Assembly (NCBI GenBank): GCA_027082775.1
Contig: JALWUI010000165.1
Span: forward strand, 1-43,276
Length of the DNA: 43,276 nt
From: Candidatus Kapaibacterium sp.
Lineage (GTDB): Bacteria; Bacteroidota; Ignavibacteria; Kapaibacteriales; WFXC01
Direction of reading: 5' to 3'
A program made the translations under genes and the position numbers. Below the pieces are notes generated by a model, which did no database searches, had not been told where the DNA came from, and saw nothing but the letters and a program-made list of their open reading frames with translations. The first letter of the stretch is position 1. Each line of letters opens with the position of its first letter. Positions 25,677 through 40,391 of this stretch are shown in pieces.

Positions 25677-26435
25677 TCAGTAGATCAATAACAAAATCCC
25701 CTGCTGCTTTACAGAAAGAACGTACACACCTGAGAGACTCACCGATGGCAATTGCCCTTTCCCTTGCCGAAGAGGAATCTTTGCAACCAGCCGTCCGTTA
25801 AGGTCACGAAGCTCGCCTTGTGCAAAGGGAAACGATCGAAAACGCTGAATCTGTATCCATCGCTGCTCTCTGGGAACGCAAAGCGCTGGAGAAGAAGCGA
25901 AAACTTGAGAATGCTCAACAACCCGACTGACAGAAGCTCGATACCAGATTTGGAGAGATAGTTCCCCAACAGCGTTATTATCAATTACTGCCGAATCCTC
26001 CTTGGTAAGATTATACACATACGCCTCGAACGGGTCAGCCAGGCGTGCCGAATCCACAATACTTGCAACTGTCCACCGAATATGCAGTGGATATCCATCC
26101 CGCTGGATATGAATCTGATGTACAACGCTATCCGACGCATGGGGCACAGGTCGAAAATCCTCCTGCGTCATAATAGGAACGCCCGTGATAGTATCGATAC
26201 AGGGCAACAAAAACACCGGAAACATTCCTTCTGGGGGCAGCAAAGGAATTTCTGCTTCCAGCGCTGTGTCCAGACAAACAGTGGCATCAAGAGCAATCCC
26301 CGCCTGAAGGGTATACTGATAACTGTTCGGACGTTCGCTGGCAAATTGTAGTTCTACTCCTACTTGCTGAGCAAAAATACTCCAACTACCTAAAAGGATA
26401 CAGATCCCAGCAATATATCGACCCTGTTTCCACAT
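25677..26435 (-). CDS. Secreted protein with short T9SS-like C-terminal segment
   Basis: MWKQGRYIAGICILLGSWSIFAQ signal peptide; C-terminal GELRDLNGRLVAKIPLRQGKGQLPSVSLSGVYVLSVKQQGILLLIY. Confidence 0.65.
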   Translation of the reverse strand: MWKQGRYIAGICILLGSWSIFAQQVGVELQFASERPNSYQYTLQAGIALDATVCLDTALEAEIPLLPPEGMFPVFLLPCIDTITGVPIMTQEDFRPVPHASDSVVHQIHIQRDGYPLHIRWTVASIVDSARLADPFEAYVYNLTKEDSAVIDNNAVGELSLQIWYRASVSRVVEHSQVFASSPALCVPREQRWIQIQRFRSFPFAQGELRDLNGRLVAKIPLRQGKGQLPSVSLSGVYVLSVKQQGILLLIY

Positions 26436-26489
26436 TCTCCCTCCCAACTTACTTTGCTCTCTACTTCTCAAACAAGATTCTTTGGTACA

Positions 26490-26530
26490 CAAACAAAAAA
26501 GGCAACCACCCTCATTGGATGGTTGCCTTT
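26490..26530 (-). terminator. Intrinsic terminator after the 1010-aa-class T9SS gene
   Basis: Minus strand AAAGGCAACCA-TCCAATGAGGG-TGGTTGCCTTT then TTTGTTTG. Confidence 0.82.
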
Positions 26531-26562
26531 CCGCTACTTTGCAATCAAATTCTTGACAACCG

Positions 26563-29550
26563 CTACCGTGCAATGACTAATCGCTGGGTAAATTGCTTAT
26601 CTCCCAGGCTGACTCGACACACATAAACCCCTTCGGGCAGATTTGCAACATTCAATTTTATGGTTTGGGTACCGCTATGCACATCATACCGATAGCTTGC
26701 GATTTTCTTCCCTAAGACAGTGATAAGTTCCACCTGTGCCGGTTGATCTTCACGGGCAGTAATTTCCACAAAGACGTATTGTTGTGCTGGAGTCGGATAA
26801 AGAGCAATCCCTTCACCAGACACAACGCCGATGCTCATTAACTGAACACTTTTCACCCGCGGATCTGTAATGACTACCGCTTCGGAACTTCCCTTATCAA
26901 TTGTTCCCAAGACCTCACCTGTAACAGGATTCACAACCTTGTAGGACTGGGAAGGATTCTCAATGGCAACCACGACCGGATACTGTACACCCTGGAATTG
27001 AATCACCGGACTGTTGGCAGCACTTTCCACATAACTACCGCTTCCAAATCGCACATCGAACAATCCTGCCGGAGGAACTGGAGGCAATTCGAACCACTTG
27101 CTGATCCCACTTTCTCGAGAGAGATATAGCCGACCAACGTGATGGGCTTGATCGCGAATGACAACTACATCACTGCTGCGCAGAATGTCCTGCTTCCGGT
27201 CACGAACGACGCCCGAAGCCTTCATCGCATCCAGCCGGAGGTATCCTTCTTCATCGGTCTTTACCCAATATCCCTTTCCGGGCTCCAGCACGCTGACCTC
27301 TTTATACCCTTCGTCGGTCTTGTACCAGTAGACACCTGAAACCCGTGTTGGGATAGGACTCACATCTGTCAACGGATCAAACTGGATGTTATCCACATTG
27401 ACCGGAACGGACAACCCTCCGATCGTATTCCATCCTTTACCCAATCGCACTTGATATTGCGTTTCCCGTCCGACACTGGTTACCCGAGCCCCGGCAATAA
27501 TGCTATCCAGCAACGATCCATACTTCACAAAGTATCCCCGTCCCACCTGCAGATTGTCTTCCTGGTAATAGGCACCTTCAAAGAAGTAGCGAGGCTTATC
27601 CAGCGCATTTGGGAAGACTGTCTTCCAGAACGGATCTGCCGGACGAACGGGAAGCGATACCAGATTCCATCCTTTCTGGAGGAAAGCAAATCGCTCCACT
27701 CTTGGTGTCGCATACTCGATAATAAACGATGTAATACGCGCATCACGAATAGTAAAGGAATAGATCGTTCCTCCCACGTGCGTTGCGTTGCGCATATCAA
27801 CACCAAAAATGGAGCCGTTCAAAGTATCACGGAGGAAGAGCCGGGCGTTTGGCGGAAAGTCGCTGATATCCCAGCTTACAACCACTGGATAATCATTCTG
27901 TTCTGCTTTAAAGCGGCACAGATAAATGATAGTCGTATCGGCGTGGGCATCTCGAATATCACGTGACAGTGAACGTCCGGTCAAATCTCCCATACGAATA
28001 TCCGTTTCCGGTGGATACCATCGTGCCTCAAAGGGCATCAACGGATCAGTTTCTGCAACTTCACCAAACAGTGGATCCACACCATCGGAAGCCTCGGCGC
28101 CAGTACCAAAAATCAGCGTTTGTTGCACTCCCTGGGCACTCTCTAAGGTAATACGAATACCACGCCCTGTCACATCCTGATCCTCAACTAAGATTTCCTC
28201 ATTCGGCTCGATCGGATTCCGCCATATAATGAAAGTTACTCGCAACCGCACAGGGCTCACCAGCATTGTCGGGGAATGGAATGTGATATAGCCAACATAC
28301 ACCCCTGCCGGTCCCGTCACTCGCGAAGGATCACAAATAATCCGCAAACGCAGGGTTGGATCGCTCTGGGTTGGATTCCCCAGCGGATCGTTAATATCCC
28401 CCAGGATCCCTTCATCAATGTAGTCTATATACCCTTCCCGTGAAGGCTGCGGAATGGGGTTTTTCTGTCCAACCGTCTGGAACAACAACCACGGCTGATC
28501 GGACTGGACAAACAAATCGGTAATCCGCGACTGATCAATGATGTTTACGACATCCAATTCCCGGGTAACGACCTGGGGATCCTGCGAAGCAGAGTCAATT
28601 GTCAATGGATCAATCAGCTCCCACAAAGCTTTATTTGTTCCCGGTACTTCTCGAACTACCGCGCTGGGACCAATATCCGGCTTAAATCCAAGCTGTGGAA
28701 TACGGGTTAAACGCACGTATCCCATTCCCTTCAATGTGGGTTCTGTATTGAAGGTTAAAAGATTTTCATTCGTCAAACCGCCGAAAGGTTCTGGTTGCGG
28801 CTGATTGGGCACTGCATCTGGACCCGTCGTTGGGAATGGATATTGCCACGGATCTCGTTCATTCCATCGAATCGTATCTGCAGCAATGATCAATGGAGTG
28901 TTGGAAGCCGTCACATCGCTAATCGTGTTCGTTCCATCATCCTGAATCATTACCTTGAATTTCACGAAAAGCAGAATCGCCCAGTCGAACTGTCCTCGCT
29001 CCCCTGGAGTTGGATTCGTGAAGTTTGTTGGAGACAGAGGTTCCGAAGAAGTTCCGACAATCCGAATCCGCCGACCGTTCGGATCACCAGTATTTCCTGG
29101 AATACGGGTTTTGTAAAGAGGATCTGGACGATCATCCCACTGAATTTGAAAATGCTTCGCAATAGCAAAGGTATCGCTGCCTCGGGTTCCAATCATCTGA
29201 ACCCCAACAGCTTTCAGCGCTCGCTTATCATATCGAATGCTGAACTGAAAACTTTTGATCGGCTCTGCCGAAGCCAAAGTGTTGGAAAGCCAGGGATTTC
29301 GCACATACACCGGCACGATCAAATAATGATCCTCTTTACCCAGAGGGGCAATAGGATACCATATCCGCAGCCCCGGATACCGGATCTGCATATTTTGCTG
29401 GTACTCACCATAAGCTGGCTCTTGCAATACCAAACCAAGCTGAGGCAGCGATGGTGGTTCCACCTGTGCTAAAATGTTACTTGCAGCAACCAGGGCTACA
29501 ACCAGCAATGCGCTAACCTTACGGATAAACGGAGAAAACTTTGCCATCAT
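26563..29550 (-). CDS. Large T9SS type A sorting-domain surface protein with possible cohesin-like N-terminal domain
   Basis: Signal MMAKFSPFIRKVSALLVVALVAASNILAQ after AAAGGAAACAG; ALYPTPAQQYVFVEITAREDQPAQVELITVLGKKIASYRY...LPEGVYVCRVSLGDKQFTQRLVIAR is a T9SS CTD. Confidence 0.85.
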   Translation of the reverse strand: MMAKFSPFIRKVSALLVVALVAASNILAQVEPPSLPQLGLVLQEPAYGEYQQNMQIRYPGLRIWYPIAPLGKEDHYLIVPVYVRNPWLSNTLASAEPIKSFQFSIRYDKRALKAVGVQMIGTRGSDTFAIAKHFQIQWDDRPDPLYKTRIPGNTGDPNGRRIRIVGTSSEPLSPTNFTNPTPGERGQFDWAILLFVKFKVMIQDDGTNTISDVTASNTPLIIAADTIRWNERDPWQYPFPTTGPDAVPNQPQPEPFGGLTNENLLTFNTEPTLKGMGYVRLTRIPQLGFKPDIGPSAVVREVPGTNKALWELIDPLTIDSASQDPQVVTRELDVVNIIDQSRITDLFVQSDQPWLLFQTVGQKNPIPQPSREGYIDYIDEGILGDINDPLGNPTQSDPTLRLRIICDPSRVTGPAGVYVGYITFHSPTMLVSPVRLRVTFIIWRNPIEPNEEILVEDQDVTGRGIRITLESAQGVQQTLIFGTGAEASDGVDPLFGEVAETDPLMPFEARWYPPETDIRMGDLTGRSLSRDIRDAHADTTIIYLCRFKAEQNDYPVVVSWDISDFPPNARLFLRDTLNGSIFGVDMRNATHVGGTIYSFTIRDARITSFIIEYATPRVERFAFLQKGWNLVSLPVRPADPFWKTVFPNALDKPRYFFEGAYYQEDNLQVGRGYFVKYGSLLDSIIAGARVTSVGRETQYQVRLGKGWNTIGGLSVPVNVDNIQFDPLTDVSPIPTRVSGVYWYKTDEGYKEVSVLEPGKGYWVKTDEEGYLRLDAMKASGVVRDRKQDILRSSDVVVIRDQAHHVGRLYLSRESGISKWFELPPVPPAGLFDVRFGSGSYVESAANSPVIQFQGVQYPVVVAIENPSQSYKVVNPVTGEVLGTIDKGSSEAVVITDPRVKSVQLMSIGVVSGEGIALYPTPAQQYVFVEITAREDQPAQVELITVLGKKIASYRYDVHSGTQTIKLNVANLPEGVYVCRVSLGDKQFTQRLVIAR

Positions 29551-29591
29551 TCTGTTTCCTTTGACTTTTATAAACATCCCTTTTTGCTCTT

Positions 29592-30803
29592 CTATTTCCT
29601 GTATATCCACTCAATATGTCGCTCTTGCCCATAGCAAAAAGCAATAGCGTACAATCCACGGCTCCAGGTCATTGTCGGAATCCAGTAATACTGCTTTCCC
29701 GTCTGTATTGGAACATCCAGAATTTTTCGTCCCATACTATCGTAAACTTCAATCTTCGTCATTGGCAACCTGGTGTGAACTTCTATACCATCCGTTCCTT
29801 CCGATATGAGCTTCCATCGCGTTACTGGCTCTGTTTCTACACCACTTATCTGTCGCCATTTGACCACTATACGACTCGTGTCAAACTGCGTAACGCAATG
29901 ACAAACCGGCAACGCCTGAAATATGCCCACTGCAAAGCTCACTGTATCTGCCGACGTCGTATTGAGCACTACCCGCACTGAACACGCTGTCGAGCTCCAG
30001 TTGGAGTCTCCATAACATTGCCATTCATACCGTTGCTGCTCTGCACTCCATTCTGGTTGATCGCACTTTAAATCTCCGATAGGGAACAATTGCAATTGTT
30101 GCACCTCACCACTACCATCCAGTTGCTTGAAATACAGAGCAACCGTATCAACGCGATTGTTAAATATGTTCTGGAGCTCCATTGTGAATTGTAATGTATC
30201 TACCGGGATCGTCAGCACCGTATCATACGGGTATACATTCAATCGAGCTTGCCTGCTGAATTCGTCCCGAATCATCAATACGACAGGATCGACATTCCCG
30301 ATAGTACCCGGCACATCGATAACGGTATTATTATGGAGTCGACCAAAAGTCACCCGGCGCAGCGCAACATAACTCGTATCCGGACATCGAGGCTCACGCA
30401 CATTCCCTGCAATTGCTACCAGCGCTTTCTGAGGTTCAGCATTGTGCAGAAAACGCTGAACATTGCCACCTTCTACGACCACGACGCCATCTTCGACTGT
30501 ATGCATCTGAACAAAGTCCATCATCTCACTCAGCGTATTCGTCTTCAATAGGGTCGTTAGCGCAAACCTCGATGGATCGTACCCAATCTCGACCGCAAAT
30601 GATAGCAAACTATCCTGTACGTGAACCGTACCAACGGTTACCACCAGAATCACTCGCTGCACCGATCCACAAATATCCACCGGCTGACTCTGGATTCCGA
30701 CCACCTGAGCCGCTGTTGGGAAACTCCCACTAACCAAACTCAGGAGCGTTCCCAACCACTTCAATTTCTCAAAGAACTCACAATAAAAAACTCTTTTAAT
30801 CAC
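29592..30803 (-). CDS. Secreted protein, possible cohesin-like domain, degenerate T9SS-like C-terminus
   Basis: Signal-like N-terminus; VQDSLLSFAVEIGYDPSRFALTTLLKTNTL...VVVEGGNVQRF; C-terminal TKIEVYDSMGRKILDVPIQTGKQYYWIPTMTWSRGLYAIAF. Confidence 0.7.
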   Translation of the reverse strand: MIKRVFYCEFFEKLKWLGTLLSLVSGSFPTAAQVVGIQSQPVDICGSVQRVILVVTVGTVHVQDSLLSFAVEIGYDPSRFALTTLLKTNTLSEMMDFVQMHTVEDGVVVVEGGNVQRFLHNAEPQKALVAIAGNVREPRCPDTSYVALRRVTFGRLHNNTVIDVPGTIGNVDPVVLMIRDEFSRQARLNVYPYDTVLTIPVDTLQFTMELQNIFNNRVDTVALYFKQLDGSGEVQQLQLFPIGDLKCDQPEWSAEQQRYEWQCYGDSNWSSTACSVRVVLNTTSADTVSFAVGIFQALPVCHCVTQFDTSRIVVKWRQISGVETEPVTRWKLISEGTDGIEVHTRLPMTKIEVYDSMGRKILDVPIQTGKQYYWIPTMTWSRGLYAIAFCYGQERHIEWIYRK

Positions 30804-30844
30804 AGTCCTACAACTGTTTGCTATACGCTTTGTCTATGACAATT

Positions 30845-32866
30845 TTATCGCTTTGCTACTTGGTAAGTGCCAACAACCTGTCCGTCTTGGACAATCTGCC
30901 AGAAATAGATACCTGTTGCCACTGGATTCCCACTTCCATCTTTACCATCCCAGCGCAACTGCTGCATTTGCCCAGCTTCCAAATGACCATCCCACAGTGT
31001 TCGAAGCTTCTGTCCCAACTCGTTGACGATCTGGACTGTATAATGCCCCGTCTCAGGAGCAACATATCGCATCTGAACTTCGTTCACAAAGGGATTCGGG
31101 AAAATCTGGATCGCGGCTTGCTCCATACCAGCATTTGCAATCATTAAGGTTGTCCCTTTGCGCTGGACGTCGTTAAACCGAAGATCTGAAATCGTCACAG
31201 TGCTACCTGCAGGACGAATAATCAAATATCCCACGATTCCGGGAGCAAAATCTCCAGTTCCTGCTACCGCCACACGGTTTCCACTCCATTGCGTATACAA
31301 TCTCTGATCCCGGCCAGCAACCCCAACGAATTCTTCAATGGTAGCATTGGAAACTGTAAAAGTAAATCCAACGGTCGAATGCACATATCCATTGAGCCGA
31401 ACTGGAATGCTCACCATTCCATTGCCTATTGCTTCGGCTGTTCCAAATTCTATGGTTGTTGCTCGCATTACCGCCGCTGCCTTCCCATATCCCGGAATGG
31501 TATCCAGCAGCCAGGGCAGATCTGGCACTTTTCCGGCAATGTAGTTCAAAATCAATGCAGCATCGTATTCATTTGCCTGGAAGTACAAGTTGTTCCGAGA
31601 ATCATCGGCAGGCAGATCATCATAAACCCCAGCGCTTTTTACTGGCCACTCCCGACGATAGACAACCAAGTTTCCGTCCTGATCCAGGGAATCGCCGCTA
31701 TTATCCAGCTTCCGGGAAGAATACCAGAAACGTCCATTGTGGTTCACATCTGCGTGGTACGCCTGTCGGAACATCAAGCTATCCAGGGGCTGATTCTGCG
31801 CTACCGCCCGGAGAATGGTTAACACGTCATTGAGTGTCACATACCGATTCTGTGGCAATCCCGCATGCAATTGTCCGGGAATTTGAGACATATTGGCATC
31901 ACCATCTCCCCATCCAGCGATACCCGGTTTCGGCGTAGCGATAAATACAATAATGTTGTTATTTGCGCGAGACGGGGGCCAGATGCTGGTCAATCGCTGG
32001 CTCTTGATCACACTATCCTGCCCATCATATCCAGGAATGTAAGCACTGGAAGTGCTATCTTCTATGAAAAGCCCATTCATAAAAGAGGTATTTCCTCCCT
32101 GCGTCAGCGAGACTGACTCCAATCCTACCGCAGAACCACTAATCTTTGTAATACCTGGAATGCCACCAATGATTCCATAATGGAACTCAATATTCCCCTG
32201 ATCGCCCGTTTTTGGCTCGCCAACAGCCGGTGATTCATAGATTTTCACCTGGAAATTGGCAATACTGGAAGGCTGCGGTGCTGGATTAGCTGCGTTGGGA
32301 TTATTAGGATCAGTCGGATCAAAGAAATAATTCACGTTCAAATTCTTCCACTGAATGGTCAGCACCCGTGAACCGGGTTGTCCGGAAATGTAATAAGAAA
32401 TTTCCGACGGCATAAATCCAACGTCACTGGGCGTACGATAATAGTGATCCCCCCAGAACGGAGCAATTACCCCATTAGGAGAGTTCTTGCTGAACATATT
32501 GTTGGGATCATTCGTCCCAAAAACGGCTGGCAAATCCCCTACTTGAACAAAACCATTAACATTGACCTGAATTCGGGTATATCGCTGTCCATCAAATTCA
32601 AATTCAAACGGCAACTCAATGCCGAATTCCTGCGTCACAGGATTATAATAAAATCCATCGTCCGGATCCAGAATACTCGAATTCAAAGGATCCCGAAAAT
32701 CCTCAGCCGGGAGCACTACCCGGTCTGTTGGTAATTCCTGATAGGGTGCATTCTCAATCGTATTGGTAAAGTAAGAATAAATCTGTGCAAAAGTGTTTGC
32801 TACAGGCAACAAAAGAAGCCCTACAGCAAATGCTGCCACAGAAAAAATCCGTTGCTGCAACTTCAT
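30845..32866 (-). CDS. Secreted dockerin-like/cohesin-like protein with FlgD/T9SS-type C-terminal domain
   Basis: DGDAN..VTLNDVLTILRAV, ADVNHNGRF..EYDAALILNYIAGKVPDLP (dockerin-like); MVSIPVRLNGYVHSTVGFTFTVSNATIEEFVGV (cohesin-like); IFPNPFVNEVQMRYVAPETGHYTVQIVNELGQ..GIYFWQIVQDGQVVGTYQVAKR. Confidence 0.82.
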   Translation of the reverse strand: MKLQQRIFSVAAFAVGLLLLPVANTFAQIYSYFTNTIENAPYQELPTDRVVLPAEDFRDPLNSSILDPDDGFYYNPVTQEFGIELPFEFEFDGQRYTRIQVNVNGFVQVGDLPAVFGTNDPNNMFSKNSPNGVIAPFWGDHYYRTPSDVGFMPSEISYYISGQPGSRVLTIQWKNLNVNYFFDPTDPNNPNAANPAPQPSSIANFQVKIYESPAVGEPKTGDQGNIEFHYGIIGGIPGITKISGSAVGLESVSLTQGGNTSFMNGLFIEDSTSSAYIPGYDGQDSVIKSQRLTSIWPPSRANNNIIVFIATPKPGIAGWGDGDANMSQIPGQLHAGLPQNRYVTLNDVLTILRAVAQNQPLDSLMFRQAYHADVNHNGRFWYSSRKLDNSGDSLDQDGNLVVYRREWPVKSAGVYDDLPADDSRNNLYFQANEYDAALILNYIAGKVPDLPWLLDTIPGYGKAAAVMRATTIEFGTAEAIGNGMVSIPVRLNGYVHSTVGFTFTVSNATIEEFVGVAGRDQRLYTQWSGNRVAVAGTGDFAPGIVGYLIIRPAGSTVTISDLRFNDVQRKGTTLMIANAGMEQAAIQIFPNPFVNEVQMRYVAPETGHYTVQIVNELGQKLRTLWDGHLEAGQMQQLRWDGKDGSGNPVATGIYFWQIVQDGQVVGTYQVAKR

Positions 32867-32920
32867 AACTCTTCCCTTTATGTTATTCCAACATTTTAAC
32901 TGTCACCGTTTTATCTGTTC

Positions 32921-32958
32921 TCCGGGAACTCCTTTTTTATACCAAAGGAGCTCCCGGA
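32921..32958. terminator. Strong hairpin between the giant Pmp-like gene and the dockerin gene (partial terminator or processing site)
   Basis: TCCGGGA-a-CTCCTTT-tttatacc-AAAGGAG-c-TCCCGGA: 7+7 bp with one mismatch; no U-tract on the minus strand. Confidence 0.45.
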
Positions 32959-32973
32959 AACATTTTGCCGTAC

Positions 32974-35900
32974 TTACCGCACAACGGTCACTGGATAGAG
33001 CAGCACCTGGTCATCCAACTCAATGCGATAGAAGTACAACCCCGCTGCTACACGTTGCCCGGCCATATTCACAACATTCCACTCATACCGATAAGTGCCA
33101 GCAGCAACTTTTGCCTGCCCAAGCACCTGCACGGTTTGTCCCATCACATCTACCACTTCTACTTTCAAGTGGGTTGGATGGTCCGTTGTAACAACCACCG
33201 TTGCTTGCTCTTCAATCGGATTGGGATAGGTACTAATCCGCACACCTGCTGGCTGATGACCTTCTGCAACGCTAACAGCCGTTGAGGAATCCTTGACGAT
33301 CTCGAATCCGGTAATCTTCGTATCGTAAACTGTGACCGTGATTTGCCCGTTATCATCCTGAATATCAACGCCAGCCGATGCCCGGTAATGACCAGTGCGC
33401 ATATTGATATAGAACACATTCCCCTTGGAATTCGCATCTCGCATATACCAATCAATTCCGGGGAACGGCGATGGCACCGTATTCTTATCCCAGCTAATCG
33501 TCACCGGATAAAGCGCCCCCGATTGATCTCCGTATCCCGCCTGGAACCCTGCTTCCAGTGGCCGATCTGAGGACTTGGGAACGATATTCCGTAAGATTCC
33601 TGTCCGTTCCGGAATCATCCACCGAGCATCGAAAATGTTTGCTGGCGGAATGGGCGGAATTTCAAATTCACAGTAATTGGAATCCAGCTTCCCAATACCA
33701 CCCAGATCTGCGTCCTTCCCGGTCGTCGCATTGATAGCGGTTCCCCATTCCAGAATCTGATAAGCACCAGCGGCATTTTCAATGCGAATTGTGCTGACAA
33801 AATCGGTTTCTTCGGAAACAGCAATCCGATAGGTCAGGGTTGCCTGCTCACCTTCTTTATCCACCGCTACAATTTCAATCGTTACCGTTCCATCCGGATT
33901 GCGCGGTGTATTGTTATCAACCGTTCCTGAGACTGTTACCACAACAGTATCAATTCCACTCCCTGTGACGGTAGAAGGATCAACGGTAAATCCAGACGGT
34001 TGCGTAACAGTCAGCGTAATTTCCTCTACCGCATCATCGGGGAATGTCCGCTTCAGATCCAGATCGGTCAAGGTAATTTGCTCACTATACTGTTCACCCA
34101 CATCGACACATTCCACCAGCGGATCTCGATACAATGCAGGCGGATGATTGACCATCTGAACTTCGATGGGAATCTGCTTGACGTGCGTCAAACCATACTC
34201 ATCAGTTACCAACACCGTGATCGTATCAGCATTGGCGCCCAGGCGTGGCGCATCTTCCACCCGCGGAATTCCGTACAGTCGACCGGTCTCAGGATCAATC
34301 TTCAGCCATCGTGGGGTCTTGGCACGCGACGTGATTTCATCCCAGTTTCCTGCTTCGGGATAGCACGGATCCCGCAGAATACCGGTTGTCGGTTCATACA
34401 ACAACTCAAAGGTATGCCGCTGGTCAAAGTTGGGATCGTAGACCTTAATGACCCGTGTCGTATCGAACAATTGAGCATTATACTCTTCATCCTCTACAGC
34501 AACAGCCACCTGATCGGTTACAATCAACGGTGAGAAGTTAATCAGGATCGGCTTGGTAATCATATTGACCCCACCGTGACCATCGTGGACAACAACAGTA
34601 ATAATCGTATCAGTGTACAACCACTGGTTATACTGCGATATGGGCTTCAACAAAGTTGACCGTGCTGTTGCCGAATCAATCCGAGCCCGCAAGAGGCCTT
34701 TCTCAGTGAACGCAGCAGCATAAGGATCAGGATTGCCACTCTCATCCTGCAAGTACTCTGGAGCTAACCACTGCGGACGCACCTGTGACAATCCGCCAAC
34801 GGCTGTATCTTCCGGATTATTCCGAACACCTACCGTTGCAAATCCATACGCAACCTTCCCGTATCGGAAATCCCATCCCTGGGCAGCAGCTACTGAATCT
34901 TCCGCCTCATCATCCGTATCAAAATCAACGTCGAAGCGCAAGGAATCTGTCACACTTGCAATCAGGGTATCATTAGTCTGGCAGCGAGCATTAACAGCGG
35001 TGAACACCGGAATACTGTCGATAACCAGAATTCGGAATCGATACTCAATGGTATGATCCCACGCATAGTTGACAGTATCCTGTTGCAAGAAGCGCGCATT
35101 ATCGCTATCATAAACAGTAGCGTTGAGATAATCCCGATACAGGTAGATGTACTTAGCGATTTCCTCGTCGCTCAATCCCAATTTCTTCAGGCTATCCACC
35201 ACTTCTGCGGATGGCGCCCAATTGCGGACCCGCACAACTACTTCTTCACCGCCCGGCACAACGAATGGATTCGTTGGCTGTCCTTTAAATTGCAGGTAGC
35301 TGATAGCACCATAGTACGAGGGTACGTTATAGAAGAGCGTATCAGCATCCAGCCAATAGGACAAACCACTACCCGGTGCAACTTCCCACTCATAGGTCAA
35401 CGCCGGGTACTGATCCGGGAAGAACACGGATCGTGGATCATAGAATTTATTGGTGTCCACTGCTGTCGCTGTGAGAATCGAATCCCGTCCAATACCACTC
35501 CCTGCCGGACGTGGATAGCTAATGTCTTCCTTCAACATTATCAGATTCTGCAATTCTGCCGGCTGCACTTCTTGCAGATCCACAATATTCCCCGTCCATA
35601 CCGGTGGCTTCGTAGATGCAGCAATGCGGAAGGTAATTCCCTTATTGATTGCAGCGTTCACGCCCTCACGCCACAATACCGTCCGTGAAACAATCAGGAT
35701 TTCATCCCCAACATTCACTGGCAAAGCAGAATACTTCTCACCAGCGAAATAAACCACATTTTCACCACCATTCGTAGAAGCTGGTAGATCGGGACGGTTG
35801 GAATACTGAAATCCTGTTCCACCCAACCGATCCTCACTGTGTTCATATTTTCGTCCACGCAGCACTGCTAAGTCCTCATTTTGGGCATTACGATAGAGGT

Positions 35901-38900
35901 AATCAAGCAATGTTGCTCCTGAACCAAAGTTTGCTAATCCCTCAGCCGTCCGGCGAATAAACGGATTATTATTCCGATCTGCCGAATCGGGCACAAACTC
36001 AACGCGACCACGGAAAACTTCACTGGTCTTATCAATCTGCTTTAAGTTCACCCGGATAAAGTCACCAGTGTTGTTGTTAATGACAAAGAAGACGGTTTCG
36101 TGGAATGCCCGCTCATCATTGTTGTTCAGCTCCGCTGCTCCAGAGTAATCTGCCCACGCTTCTAAGAAGAGCGGATATCCAATGGGATGATCTCCTACAA
36201 ATTCCGTTTGCAGTGCAGCAATATTGGGATCACTTTCAGCCACAAAAGGATCTCGGGTCCAGCGCCGTACTACTTTACCAGCATAATGCTCGCTATAATT
36301 CGGGTCGTTCGGATCAGCGCTATACGTTCGAAGATGTGGCGGAATACCAACAGCAAAGTCTTCGACCCGTGCAAGTCGCCGCTTCGAGTAATCTGCCGTT
36401 TTAATATCTGTTCCCTTGTCGAAAATGTCATACACAACCCCTTGCTGGAGGTATTTTTCGGGAATGCTCACGGTAAAGTCATCCGAGACCGGAATCGGTG
36501 TGTAAGAGTACTTACTCAAAGACTCAAACGGTCCCTGTTGTTTCCCGCTGCCGCCCTGGACAAATGGCAATTGCGATTCATTCGGATCGCCACCAATAAA
36601 GAAGGTTTCTTGAACCGCGTTCCGATCTACAATGATAGTATGAACATCCGGTCCGGTTTCACCCCAGTAATTCCCCTGGAGCAAATTCACCCCACCATAA
36701 CCGATTCCTGTTGTACCTGCCAGCACTCCCTTTGTATTCGGAGCATCCGGCAGACGAATCAAAAACCGAGCGGAATTGTCATAAATAGCATTTGCCAAAA
36801 CGGAGTAGTCATCACTGGGATACGGTCCTACAACATCACCGTACAACACAGCTCCTGCCAGATCACTGGATGCCTCATTCTGCCCATTTACGTACGGACC
36901 GGTAATAACGTTCTGATCCTTCCCGATCTCAGAGGTTGCAACATTCCCTGTAATCAGGCATCGATTGAACACAAGTGCTAAGTCATAATTATCCGAGTAA
37001 ACAACAGCCCCGGAATATGCTTTGTTGTCCTGGAAGCGGACACGATCAAAGACAAACATATCGCCACGAGAAGCCATTGGTTGATCAACGATATAGATAG
37101 CACCGCCCAATCCGGTTCCATTCTCCGGAATGTTCGTTCCCGGATGGTATCGAGAAACATCACCGGTTTGTGGCTGCGTTGTACCACTCCCCATTTGATC
37201 CATATTGGGAATCGCCTCATTTTCCAGGAACCGGGTCAATGAGCGTACATCCGCATCAACACTGCCACCATAGGTGTAAACATCGTCACCACCAGTAGTG
37301 TAGGTATTGCCGCTGACAGCATCGAAATCCGTCAGGAAATATCGGTTGACGCTGACATCCGGTGCAACGATACACAATGCACCGCCATTACCGTTGTAAG
37401 CTTTATTCCGCAAGAACTCCACAGCGCGGACCGACTTCACTTCGGCATTAAACGCATAGATCGCTCCACCACCACGGACCTGCGCCAAAAGCCCCGAAGT
37501 AATATTGCCAAAATACTTCTTCAAGAACACCGTGTCTCCAACAACGTTATCCTCAAAAAGCACGCGAGTTAAATCAATCGAGCGATCATCAGGATCCAGC
37601 GAGCTAAACGTTACCACACTAATAGCACCACCGGAAAAGCCAGCTTTGTTACCTTTGAACTCTACTCGATAACCTGCACCGTAGTTGATGGTGGTACCAA
37701 ACACGCCTCCTGCCCCGTAAACTCTAACACGCTTCTTGGCATAAATGGCACCACCATCGTGGGAAGCTTCGTTATTAACAAAGCGAATTTTATACCCGTA
37801 TCCTCGGGTAACGGCGGTCGCATTGGATCCACCGATTGTCGGAGAAGGCAACAGATTCACTGCATTGGTTGGAACCAACAGGAACGTATAGATAGCACCA
37901 CCACGTGCTGCCGAATTTTCTTCAAAGACTGTTTCAACCCCACCCTGATCCACATCATAGCTGGAACGCACTTGAATGCGCGGAGAATTCGCTGATGCAT
38001 AGATGGCTCCTCCCTGAGAATAATCGGCAGGATTCGTATTAAAGGGGGTTGAGGTAGAATTATTTTTAAATCGTCCTGCAAAAATGACAGAGGTTGCATC
38101 CCCAACATAAACAGCACCACCTTTTGCTCCCTGGGTTGTCTTTCCGTTATTCGGCGTTACGGGTTGCAGATTGATCGCCTGATTGCCTTCGAAGATCACA
38201 AAATCCCGATCTGATTCGAAGCCTTGATTATCACCCAGCGAAATCTCCATCAAGTTCCGTCCGGCGATATACACCGCGCCACCAAAAGCCTGGTTTTTAT
38301 AGTCGTGATACGGATCCACCGTTGCCGCTTCGTCCATATTATCTTGAATGCCGATGGGCACTCCATTTTGATCATATACTTGCACTACATCTGCCAGCAG
38401 CACTTTATTATTCCGGAAAGTCAACTGCCGGACTCGTCCAAGATAGATGGCTAAACGTCCATCATCCACTGCCTGCCGCTGCAAATCTGTTAATGGCTCA
38501 CTGGTGGGATACATCAACTGATCAATTGCTCGAATCTGTTGATTGATCGGCATTCCAGTTTCCGGATCCGTAACATTAGGATTGACGGCATTCATCGGAT
38601 CGGTGGAATAGTATCCAACGCCCAAATTATCCAGATCAACTGAAGGATACACTGCTGGTGTTCCTCCCGGTCCAAAATCATCTAACGGAGCCTGCAAAAA
38701 TTGGACAGCACCTCCTCGATATCGAGCCATATTGTTTTCAAACACACAATTCACCAACCACGTACGGCTGGAGAACGTGGTCAATGCTCCTCCGGATCCA
38801 TTTGTCATCGACAACAGCCGCTTATTGAAAGCTTCATACTGCGCTGCAACGCCTGGCGTTGGCGGCTGATAAATTGGCACCCGATCAACAGTAGTATCTT

Positions 38901-39609
38901 TACGGAAATTCTTGAAATCAACATCCCGGAAGTACGCTGCTTTGGCTCCCGGCAGCACAATAATGTGTCCCCATTCTCGAGAAAAGCTATTGACCGGACG
39001 CCCTTCAAAAGTGATCCGTCCTGCGACTACATTGACTGATCCTCCACCGGGCCGCGACCACGGCGTTACTTTCAAATTTGGATCGATATCGGCAAACTCA
39101 ATGCGAGAAGCCTTGTAAATAATCGCCTTCCCTGCTGGCAAATTCTGCAATCGGGAATCGGTACTACTCAAATTGATGTTAAAAATATCTTCTCGCTTCG
39201 AAATGTTCACCGTTGGTTCATTGATTACCGAGGCGGAAACAACATTCGGATAGGCGAAATAATCCAGATCCGCGTATCCGTCCTCAAACTGCGTATACTG
39301 TGGATCCAGCGGATCGATCACATTGGGATTGTACGTTGCAGTCACCCGACCATCGGCAATCAATCGACCGCCAGCCCAGACAATAATCCGCCCGTTCGGC
39401 AGAAACTCCACCTTGGTTCCGGGCTCAATAAGCAACGTCCCTTCAATCTTATAAGTACCGCTAATGCGGTACAGCGTATCCTTGAGAAAGATACGCGTTT
39501 GATTACTCGGCAAAACCCCGGAAATTTCTTTAACCGGTTGTGCCAGCAAATGCAAAATGCTGAACAGTGCGACGACAACTACGGAAAAAGTACGAATCCA
39601 CCGTTGCAT
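32974..39609 (-). CDS. Giant (~2.2 kaa) Pmp-like beta-helix surface protein with T9SS type A sorting domain
   Basis: Signal MQRWIRTFSVVVVALFSILHLLAQ after GAGGG; at least 11 GGA[ILV] and about 10 FxxN motifs; C-terminal ISTYPNPIEEQATVVVTTDHPTHLKVEVVDVMGQTVQVL...AAGLYFYRIELDDQVLLYPVTVVR. Confidence 0.9.
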   Translation of the reverse strand: MQRWIRTFSVVVVALFSILHLLAQPVKEISGVLPSNQTRIFLKDTLYRISGTYKIEGTLLIEPGTKVEFLPNGRIIVWAGGRLIADGRVTATYNPNVIDPLDPQYTQFEDGYADLDYFAYPNVVSASVINEPTVNISKREDIFNINLSSTDSRLQNLPAGKAIIYKASRIEFADIDPNLKVTPWSRPGGGSVNVVAGRITFEGRPVNSFSREWGHIIVLPGAKAAYFRDVDFKNFRKDTTVDRVPIYQPPTPGVAAQYEAFNKRLLSMTNGSGGALTTFSSRTWLVNCVFENNMARYRGGAVQFLQAPLDDFGPGGTPAVYPSVDLDNLGVGYYSTDPMNAVNPNVTDPETGMPINQQIRAIDQLMYPTSEPLTDLQRQAVDDGRLAIYLGRVRQLTFRNNKVLLADVVQVYDQNGVPIGIQDNMDEAATVDPYHDYKNQAFGGAVYIAGRNLMEISLGDNQGFESDRDFVIFEGNQAINLQPVTPNNGKTTQGAKGGAVYVGDATSVIFAGRFKNNSTSTPFNTNPADYSQGGAIYASANSPRIQVRSSYDVDQGGVETVFEENSAARGGAIYTFLLVPTNAVNLLPSPTIGGSNATAVTRGYGYKIRFVNNEASHDGGAIYAKKRVRVYGAGGVFGTTINYGAGYRVEFKGNKAGFSGGAISVVTFSSLDPDDRSIDLTRVLFEDNVVGDTVFLKKYFGNITSGLLAQVRGGGAIYAFNAEVKSVRAVEFLRNKAYNGNGGALCIVAPDVSVNRYFLTDFDAVSGNTYTTGGDDVYTYGGSVDADVRSLTRFLENEAIPNMDQMGSGTTQPQTGDVSRYHPGTNIPENGTGLGGAIYIVDQPMASRGDMFVFDRVRFQDNKAYSGAVVYSDNYDLALVFNRCLITGNVATSEIGKDQNVITGPYVNGQNEASSDLAGAVLYGDVVGPYPSDDYSVLANAIYDNSARFLIRLPDAPNTKGVLAGTTGIGYGGVNLLQGNYWGETGPDVHTIIVDRNAVQETFFIGGDPNESQLPFVQGGSGKQQGPFESLSKYSYTPIPVSDDFTVSIPEKYLQQGVVYDIFDKGTDIKTADYSKRRLARVEDFAVGIPPHLRTYSADPNDPNYSEHYAGKVVRRWTRDPFVAESDPNIAALQTEFVGDHPIGYPLFLEAWADYSGAAELNNNDERAFHETVFFVINNNTGDFIRVNLKQIDKTSEVFRGRVEFVPDSADRNNNPFIRRTAEGLANFGSGATLLDYLYRNAQNEDLAVLRGRKYEHSEDRLGGTGFQYSNRPDLPASTNGGENVVYFAGEKYSALPVNVGDEILIVSRTVLWREGVNAAINKGITFRIAASTKPPVWTGNIVDLQEVQPAELQNLIMLKEDISYPRPAGSGIGRDSILTATAVDTNKFYDPRSVFFPDQYPALTYEWEVAPGSGLSYWLDADTLFYNVPSYYGAISYLQFKGQPTNPFVVPGGEEVVVRVRNWAPSAEVVDSLKKLGLSDEEIAKYIYLYRDYLNATVYDSDNARFLQQDTVNYAWDHTIEYRFRILVIDSIPVFTAVNARCQTNDTLIASVTDSLRFDVDFDTDDEAEDSVAAAQGWDFRYGKVAYGFATVGVRNNPEDTAVGGLSQVRPQWLAPEYLQDESGNPDPYAAAFTEKGLLRARIDSATARSTLLKPISQYNQWLYTDTIITVVVHDGHGGVNMITKPILINFSPLIVTDQVAVAVEDEEYNAQLFDTTRVIKVYDPNFDQRHTFELLYEPTTGILRDPCYPEAGNWDEITSRAKTPRWLKIDPETGRLYGIPRVEDAPRLGANADTITVLVTDEYGLTHVKQIPIEVQMVNHPPALYRDPLVECVDVGEQYSEQITLTDLDLKRTFPDDAVEEITLTVTQPSGFTVDPSTVTGSGIDTVVVTVSGTVDNNTPRNPDGTVTIEIVAVDKEGEQATLTYRIAVSEETDFVSTIRIENAAGAYQILEWGTAINATTGKDADLGGIGKLDSNYCEFEIPPIPPANIFDARWMIPERTGILRNIVPKSSDRPLEAGFQAGYGDQSGALYPVTISWDKNTVPSPFPGIDWYMRDANSKGNVFYINMRTGHYRASAGVDIQDDNGQITVTVYDTKITGFEIVKDSSTAVSVAEGHQPAGVRISTYPNPIEEQATVVVTTDHPTHLKVEVVDVMGQTVQVLGQAKVAAGTYRYEWNVVNMAGQRVAAGLYFYRIELDDQVLLYPVTVVR

Positions 39610-39650
39610 AGGTCCCTCACCTTTATAATTGTTACTCACTTTTTGATTCC

Positions 39651-40391
39651 TCATTCCTGTGATTCAATAGTTTCTGGAACAATCGCCTTCCCCAAGCGAA
39701 CCAATCCGGATTTTGCAAATCCAGCGTAATAAGAAAACGGTGTTGTCAAAATAATTTCTCGATACAGTTGCTCTGCTTTTTCAGGCTGCTTTGCTACCTC
39801 GTACAACTGAGCACTATACAAGAGATACCGCTGATATTCACTCCGTTCTTTTGCCTGCTCTGCCATTTCCCCCCATTTTTCCGCTGCTTCAGCATAGTGA
39901 AACGCAGCATCGCTGACAGTCCCTATCCCTCCTAACCCACCTAATCGCACATCAAGTGCCTCACTCTCATACGCTGTCTCGTAATAAGAATTCGCTTCAT
40001 CAAATTTCCCCCGCAGCGTCAATGCATGCCCTGCGAATAAAGCGGCTATCTGAGCACCGGGCGTTCCACTATACTGCTCCACTATTTGCTTCAGTCCAAT
40101 CACCTGTTCTCCTCGAATCCGCTTACCCGGATCACCTTCCAGTGCTTTCTGGTATTCTCCCCGCTCGAAATATGGCAGAATTCTGGACAGTGCGGTCAAT
40201 GCTTTTCGATTTTGCTCGTGGCGATTCTGAACATAGTAAACAATCCCGCCCACAAGCAGTAAGACTCCAACAATCCCCCATCCTATCCAGGGAGCATATT
40301 GCTTCACTTCTTCAACAACTGGTATCCCCTGCTGTCCCTGTTGCTGCTGTTTCCGAACGCGCTGCTTTTCTAACTTTGCAACCTGCACCAT
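39651..40391 (-). CDS. Membrane-anchored TPR-type protein (YfgM-like layout)
   Basis: Single TM (WIGWGIVGVLLLVGGIVYYVQ) followed by TPR-like helices ending EKAEQLYREIILTTPFSYYAGFAKSGLVRLGK. Confidence 0.65.
   Translation of the reverse strand: MVQVAKLEKQRVRKQQQQGQQGIPVVEEVKQYAPWIGWGIVGVLLLVGGIVYYVQNRHEQNRKALTALSRILPYFERGEYQKALEGDPGKRIRGEQVIGLKQIVEQYSGTPGAQIAALFAGHALTLRGKFDEANSYYETAYESEALDVRLGGLGGIGTVSDAAFHYAEAAEKWGEMAEQAKERSEYQRYLLYSAQLYEVAKQPEKAEQLYREIILTTPFSYYAGFAKSGLVRLGKAIVPETIESQE

Follow-up and report, generated by a model that had tools for sequence, protein, structure and literature searches.

A conserved gene cluster of the Candidatus Kapaibacterium lineage probably encoding an enzyme-free, T9SS-exported cell-surface assembly with candidate cohesin/dockerin-like joints

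Cohesins and dockerins are docking modules of proteins that are otherwise familiar from machinery for the digestion of cellulose. In Archaeoglobus fulgidus, a dockerin and a cohesin reportedly reside on one protein, and a second cohesin is said to come from a neighbouring gene. This non-cellulosomal pair (PDB 2xdh) is attributed to Voronov-Goldman et al. 2011, as cited in PMC9705933, and cohesin/dockerin proteins outside cellulosomes are by now established (PMC9012536, PMC9705933). ANME archaea encode extracellular dockerin/cohesin proteins to which no cellulolytic role has been assigned (PMC9012536); in the Cloacimonadota, a T9SS-anchored scaffoldin of Candidatus Stygibacter has been proposed to act as a surface complex (PMC8542988); and the surface coat of Tannerella forsythia, a T9SS-dependent surface layer, is lost in T9SS mutants (PMC4175972). 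A literature search, with most subscription journals outside its scope, returned no paper describing the cluster that we report here.

The window, by which we mean the whole stretch of DNA analysed, is a contig of 43,276 nucleotides (C165) from the genome of an uncultured bacterium, 2.74 Mb in 215 contigs; one of its proteins, A, is 95-98% identical to its nearest named relatives, which are MAGs of Candidatus Kapaibacterium, a genus placed by NCBI in the Bacteroidota, class Eximiradiia. A sequence-only reading of this DNA had proposed that five consecutive genes for secreted proteins, most with T9SS-like tails, could form a cell-surface complex through cohesin-dockerin-like contacts. The five consecutive ORFs are indeed there, all on the minus strand (as are the features placed in them below), and each N-terminus is signal-peptide-like: by sequence, P, A, B, C and D all begin with a hydrophobic stretch ending in AQ. 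P (32974..39654; 2226 aa, its signal peptide beginning with the Met at 39609, as had been read before) combines Pmp-type repeats and He_PIG domains with a T9SS tail and with a domain also found in C and D. A (30845..32866; 673 aa) has nidogen-like, dockerin-like and cohesin-like domains followed by a T9SS/FlgD-type tail, while B (29592..30803; 403 aa), the fastest-evolving member, ends in a T9SS tail after two cohesin-like domains. C (26563..29577; ~1004 aa) consists of an N-terminal cohesin-like domain, two copies of the shared domain, a GWNLLSLPV-type domain and a T9SS tail; its start is most likely at 29577, judged by its relatives, which are 1004 aa long. D (25677..26435; ~252 aa) has one copy of the shared domain and a T9SS tail; its most probable start is the Met at 26435 rather than the TTG at 26573. 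Upstream, overlapping P by 4 bp in the window, lies the first gene of the conserved cluster, T (39651..40391, minus strand), which encodes a TPR protein (TPR_21, 4.4e-6) anchored in the inner membrane by one N-terminal transmembrane stretch.

Like the Archaeoglobus fulgidus pair, this locus places a cohesin-like fold outside any cellulosome; in contrast to that pair, the loops of its dockerin-like module contain insertions, T9SS tails are found on four proteins of the run in addition to A, and five secreted members are kept over an order. The Ca. Stygibacter scaffoldin (PMC8542988) likewise joins cohesin modules to a T9SS-type tail, but it is a 3,755-aa protein with tandem cohesins and dockerin enzymes, whereas the present proteins carry their cohesin-like domains singly or in pairs and no enzymes accompany them. 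The ANME proteins (PMC9012536) are likewise of the dockerin/cohesin type without an assigned cellulolytic role; their sets, however, differ among genomes and include scaffoldin-like proteins, while the Kapaibacterium set is fixed in order and content. For reading the set as a coat, the Tannerella forsythia surface layer (PMC4175972) offers a precedent at the level of its description, in which cohesin-like domains do not feature. On balance, and with moderate confidence, we favour the view that P-A-B-C-D, with T upstream, is a co-inherited cluster of the Kapaibacterium lineage that makes an enzyme-free cell-surface assembly, a coat with cohesin/dockerin-like joints.

The conservation of gene order turned out to be far stronger than could be known from one sequence. 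Among 80 loci from the named genomes, T-P-A-B-C-D is complete in 63, and the incomplete ones are mostly cut by contig ends; the median gaps along the series are 59/72/2/16.5/77 bp, the first of these values coming from the 70 loci in which T adjoins P. The cluster occurs in every sampled family of the order except f7, and two families of the same class beyond the order, f16 and f18, have the identical T-P-A-B-C-D order. In a single-sequence search, A was full-length in 49 of the 61 order genomes; two of the remaining 12 (G044, G053) carry pieces of the cluster at contig ends, and the other ten all belong to f7. In these ten, A and P were not found beyond the tail, and no f7 genome included in the profile search gave a match to the A or C profile. 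No full-length C or A was found in any other sampled family beyond the order and f16/f18. Genomes as small as 1.8-2.0 Mb, in which only 11-19 T9SS tails are recognised, retain the cluster. Since almost the whole bacterial order keeps all these genes in one arrangement, the set probably builds a shared cell-surface structure.

Several further observations concern the surroundings and fringes of the cluster. The neighbours outside T-D are less constant than T-D itself: on the 3' side of D, genes that we read from their sequences as GT2-like, outer-membrane-like (~250 aa) and GT9-like occur in 32-39 of 67 loci, and a DUF3108 gene, E, which adjoins D in few loci only, was rejected as a cluster member. 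The profile of C matches many genomes of the phylum; outside the clade, where the matches cover only its C-terminal half or its tail, we did not take them for C. The f7 genomes without the cluster (G008, G016, G023, G030, G036, G042, G047, G052, G056 and G060) are mostly larger, at 3-6 Mb. One assembly (G040:C1) has two copies of the cluster (L065 and L066), one of them with the match scores of G005, and is probably a mixed assembly.

The close spacing of the genes suggests an operon. Between C and D there is an intrinsic-terminator-like hairpin of 16 pairs followed by a T run (26496..26532, minus strand); hairpins of this kind follow C in 36 of 70 loci, compared to 0-5 of 69-78 loci for each of the other cluster genes, and at the C-D junctions of L090-L169 they often have the stem GGGCAGCAG...CTGCTGCCC. 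Given this recurrence after C, T-P-A-B-C is likely a transcription unit, with D likely reached via read-through or from a promoter of its own; a scan for sigma-70-type promoters found sites no commoner than in shuffles. Treating the five as one set is upheld by the T-P-A-B-C-D order and qualified by the hairpin, which separates D from the other four.

T9SS-like tails had earlier been read on most of the five proteins; all five families in fact carry them. C and P pass the cut-off of the T9SS-tail models (P: TIGR04183, 29.2 bits), A narrowly misses TIGR04183 (22.7 vs 23 bits), and B and D of this genome have no T9SS-tail match at cut-off. However, Por_Secre_tail is found in 24 of 44 B relatives and 28 of 42 D relatives, and hhalign links the tails of all five proteins to one another; it is on these grounds that we assign tails to B and D as well. 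In this genome 39 T9SS tails are recognisable and the translocon gene sprA is present (SprA, 1.0e-38), so that all five families combine a C-terminal sorting domain with a T9SS in the genome, as T9SS cargo does. We propose that P, A, B, C and D would cross the outer membrane via the T9SS and remain at the cell surface, and that T may assist in the periplasmic handling of very long cargo.

The largest member, P, had been taken for a Pmp-like beta-helix, and its Pmp-like repeats are recognised by profile (Chlam_PMP, 1.1e-23), together with He_PIG (8.1e-8). Its residues ~1955-2090 (33385..33792) form the domain common to C and D (hhalign to C3 99%, D1 98% and C5 96%). In C, this domain occupies residues 478-640 (27691..28179; hhalign to D1 98.8%) and occurs again at 26821-27168; in D it lies at 25875-26387 (hhalign to C3 98.8%). 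It has a motif like FGxxxxATDGxDxxxGE...PPxPP, and no Pfam family was reported for it. In other families P can have a YCF48/BNR-type propeller insert (L155:1865-9910, a distant member; PSII_BNR 4.8e-37). At L101:17314-20349, 3' of C in a second copy, a C-like protein with only 17% identity is encoded; one member of the C alignment, possibly this protein, matches IgGFc_binding strongly.

A cohesin-like pattern had been noticed in B and in the N-terminus of C. We compared the domains by hhalign with cohesins that Pfam had identified elsewhere in this order, excluding one B member (L188); the E-values of such one-template comparisons are uncalibrated, and it is the contrast with the other domains that constitutes the evidence. 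Both B domains match, the first at residues 34-190 (30234..30704; B1, 70%; PF00963 in relatives) and the second at residues 185-305 (29889..30251; B2, 89%), and so do residues 50-320 of C, numbered in the ORF from 29610 (28651..29463; C1, 95% over 111 columns). To these A adds a cohesin-like domain at residues 462-580 (31127..31483; 76%, and Foldseek). The nidogen-like domain, the tail, C2-C5 and the D domains all stay below 4%; D, at 3.8%, was accordingly rejected as a cohesin-like protein. The Pfam Cohesin family (PF00963) has no match among the window proteins, and a Pfam search of B and D of the window gave no matches at all; in the relatives of B, PF00963 is over cut-off in two (G048, G010) and at E <= 0.1 in 3 of 44 members. 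Searched against PDB profiles, the second B domain matches cohesins 4dh2 (E 0.049) and 2vo8 (E 0.14) weakly.

Structure prediction points in the same direction. The AlphaFold2 model of B (pLDDT 81, pTM 0.61) matches the solved cohesins 3l8q, 5nrm (TMt 0.73) and 4ums (0.68) in Foldseek; generic adhesin Ig domains score similarly, so that fold alone is unspecific there. The model of A 312-582 matches cohesins 2o4e, 2xdh, 2jh2 and 2vo8, with TMt 0.58 for both 2xdh and 2vo8; 2xdh is the second-best solved match of the cohesin-like domain of A, and the best matches of A are mostly non-cellulosomal cohesins. The one cohesin-like domain of A and the two of B are thus supported by both profile and fold, and the one in C by profile. 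Cohesin-like folds serve as spacers too. Two of the outcomes named beforehand as refuting a surface complex with cohesin-dockerin-like contacts did not occur, since cohesin similarity is found by profile and by fold and synteny is strongly conserved; D has no cohesin-like domain.

On the dockerin side, the candidate is found in A. Its N-terminal residues 28-312 (31931..32785) are a candidate nidogen-like (NIDO) region, recognised through PF06119 in 5 of 37 relatives (best 1.6e-5) and without a match in the window A itself. Residues 318-465 (31472..31915) then form a dockerin-like double EF-hand in which each calcium loop has an insertion, at residues ~327-339 and ~381-429. D323, D347, D373 and D435 are invariant in 48 of 48 relatives, other loop positions being mostly Asp or Asn; the pairs D323/D347 and D373/D435 mark two repeats of calcium loop plus helix, as in a dockerin, and the model places helices at residues 345-356 and 433-443. 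Uninterrupted 12-residue calcium loops are not found in A, and Pfam Dockerin type I (PF00404) reaches only 1 of 37 A members, at E 0.094. With the insertions kept, hhalign of A against dockerins gives 9.6% over 12 columns; leaving out both insertion blocks raises this to 67% over 56 columns, in register. As a control, forty column removals of the same size elsewhere in the A alignment did not exceed 50%, and the two with the highest values also took out most of the second insertion. A alone had no match in the PDB, its profile retrieved FlgD- and T9SS-type tails only, and a PHROGs search gave no matches. The dockerin half of the proposed contacts is upheld in its double EF-hand repeats and weakened by the insertion in each loop and by Pfam's blindness to the module, which from its sequence we would call dockerin-like, short of a dockerin proper.

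The same module admits another explanation, namely that the dockerin-like and cohesin-like domains of A are one rigid unit, a cis pair or a buttress, whose contact is internal, so that any assembly would proceed through other surfaces. The AlphaFold2 model of A 312-582 has pLDDT 91 and pTM 0.89 despite containing two domains, which hints that they pack in cis and is compatible with such packing rather than with a free docking module; the linker L450-P451-W452 is invariant, and large proteins from outside the clade contain part of this region as well. On the other hand, pTM is silent on which faces touch, and the cohesin-like domains of B and C would be left unexplained. We regard cis pairing inside A as a serious alternative for the dockerin-like module, and the rigid unit as a possible, if less than probable, account of it; the weights that we give to the coat assembly and to this account overlap, because both can hold. 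As for the recurrence, proteins of families f15 and f19 (G219, G245, G424, G487), which lie outside the clade and are in some cases large, contain a piece that matches the end of the dockerin-like region of A, its cohesin-like domain and its tail.

The proteins of the cluster do not diverge at the same pace. Purifying selection within the genus is strong for P and C (dN/dS 0.02-0.04), and P, A and C are 95-98% identical between the window and L090 and L091, whereas B is only 72-79% identical, with dN/dS 0.22-0.25. The divergence of B peaks in the second of its cohesin-like domains, with a synonymous divergence close to 1; as synonymous divergence varies along the cluster, recombination may contribute to this pattern. 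For T, A, B, C and D, the distance matrices are correlated with one another (r 0.75-0.87, no permutation being as high), which shows common descent and is by itself silent on interaction.

These rates bear on a view that we consider rather doubtful, in which the five are co-regulated independent adhesins, each exported and anchored separately, with the cohesin-like domains as spacers that bind nothing within the set. A tight conserved interface would predict something other than a B that diverges fast next to an A and a C that do not; every protein has its own T9SS tail and so needs no partner for anchoring, and the similar scores of generic adhesin Ig domains fit this view as well. Strict order and content over many families, plus the two further families, would however be unusual for independent adhesins. 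The remaining alternative, a scaffold like that of a cellulosome, serving enzymes with canonical dockerins from other loci of the genome, is favoured by the few canonical dockerins of the genome, three of them at E <= 0.001, and by the dockerin enzymes of the proposed Cloacimonadota T9SS-anchored scaffoldin (PMC8542988), but we reject it as highly improbable, since the run has no enzyme or carbohydrate-binding module (none of dockerin-bearing glycoside hydrolases, a multi-cohesin scaffoldin or a cellulose-binding module is found in it, and the early observation that no glycoside hydrolase is recognisable among the five genes is confirmed) and since the distribution of canonical dockerins argues against it, the cluster being kept in several genomes, e.g. 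G003, G012, G019 and G031, where none was found at E <= 0.001.

A clade-specific, T9SS-exported, enzyme-free surface assembly appears to us the best supported reading of these sequences; against it count the atypical dockerin-like module, the position of D behind a hairpin, and the fact that f7 lives without the cluster. In such an assembly the proteins retained at the surface would together form a coat that serves adhesion or protection; the beta-helix-type P and the nidogen-like A would be its adhesive parts, and its joints, formed in cis or in trans, would come from the cohesin-like modules of A, B and C and from the dockerin-like, calcium-binding module of A. Joints of the cohesin/dockerin type between the cluster proteins are plausible. 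The bolder version, that five T9SS-exported proteins form a lineage-defining, non-cellulosomal structure of the Kapaibacteria in which a calcium-binding dockerin variant with loop insertions pairs with the cohesin-like domains of its own operon, we put forward tentatively and think unlikely to hold in full.

The cluster offers defined pairs of modules, the dockerin-like module of A against B1, B2, C1 and the cohesin-like domain of A, as well as a domain common to P, C and D for which Pfam has no model. If the modules do pair, assembly of the cohesin/dockerin type would extend to an enzyme-free surface complex exported by the T9SS. That a cluster for very large secreted proteins keeps one fixed order across many families, streamlined genomes included, suggests that its product is a core structure of the cell surface in this lineage, which is known mainly from metagenomes.
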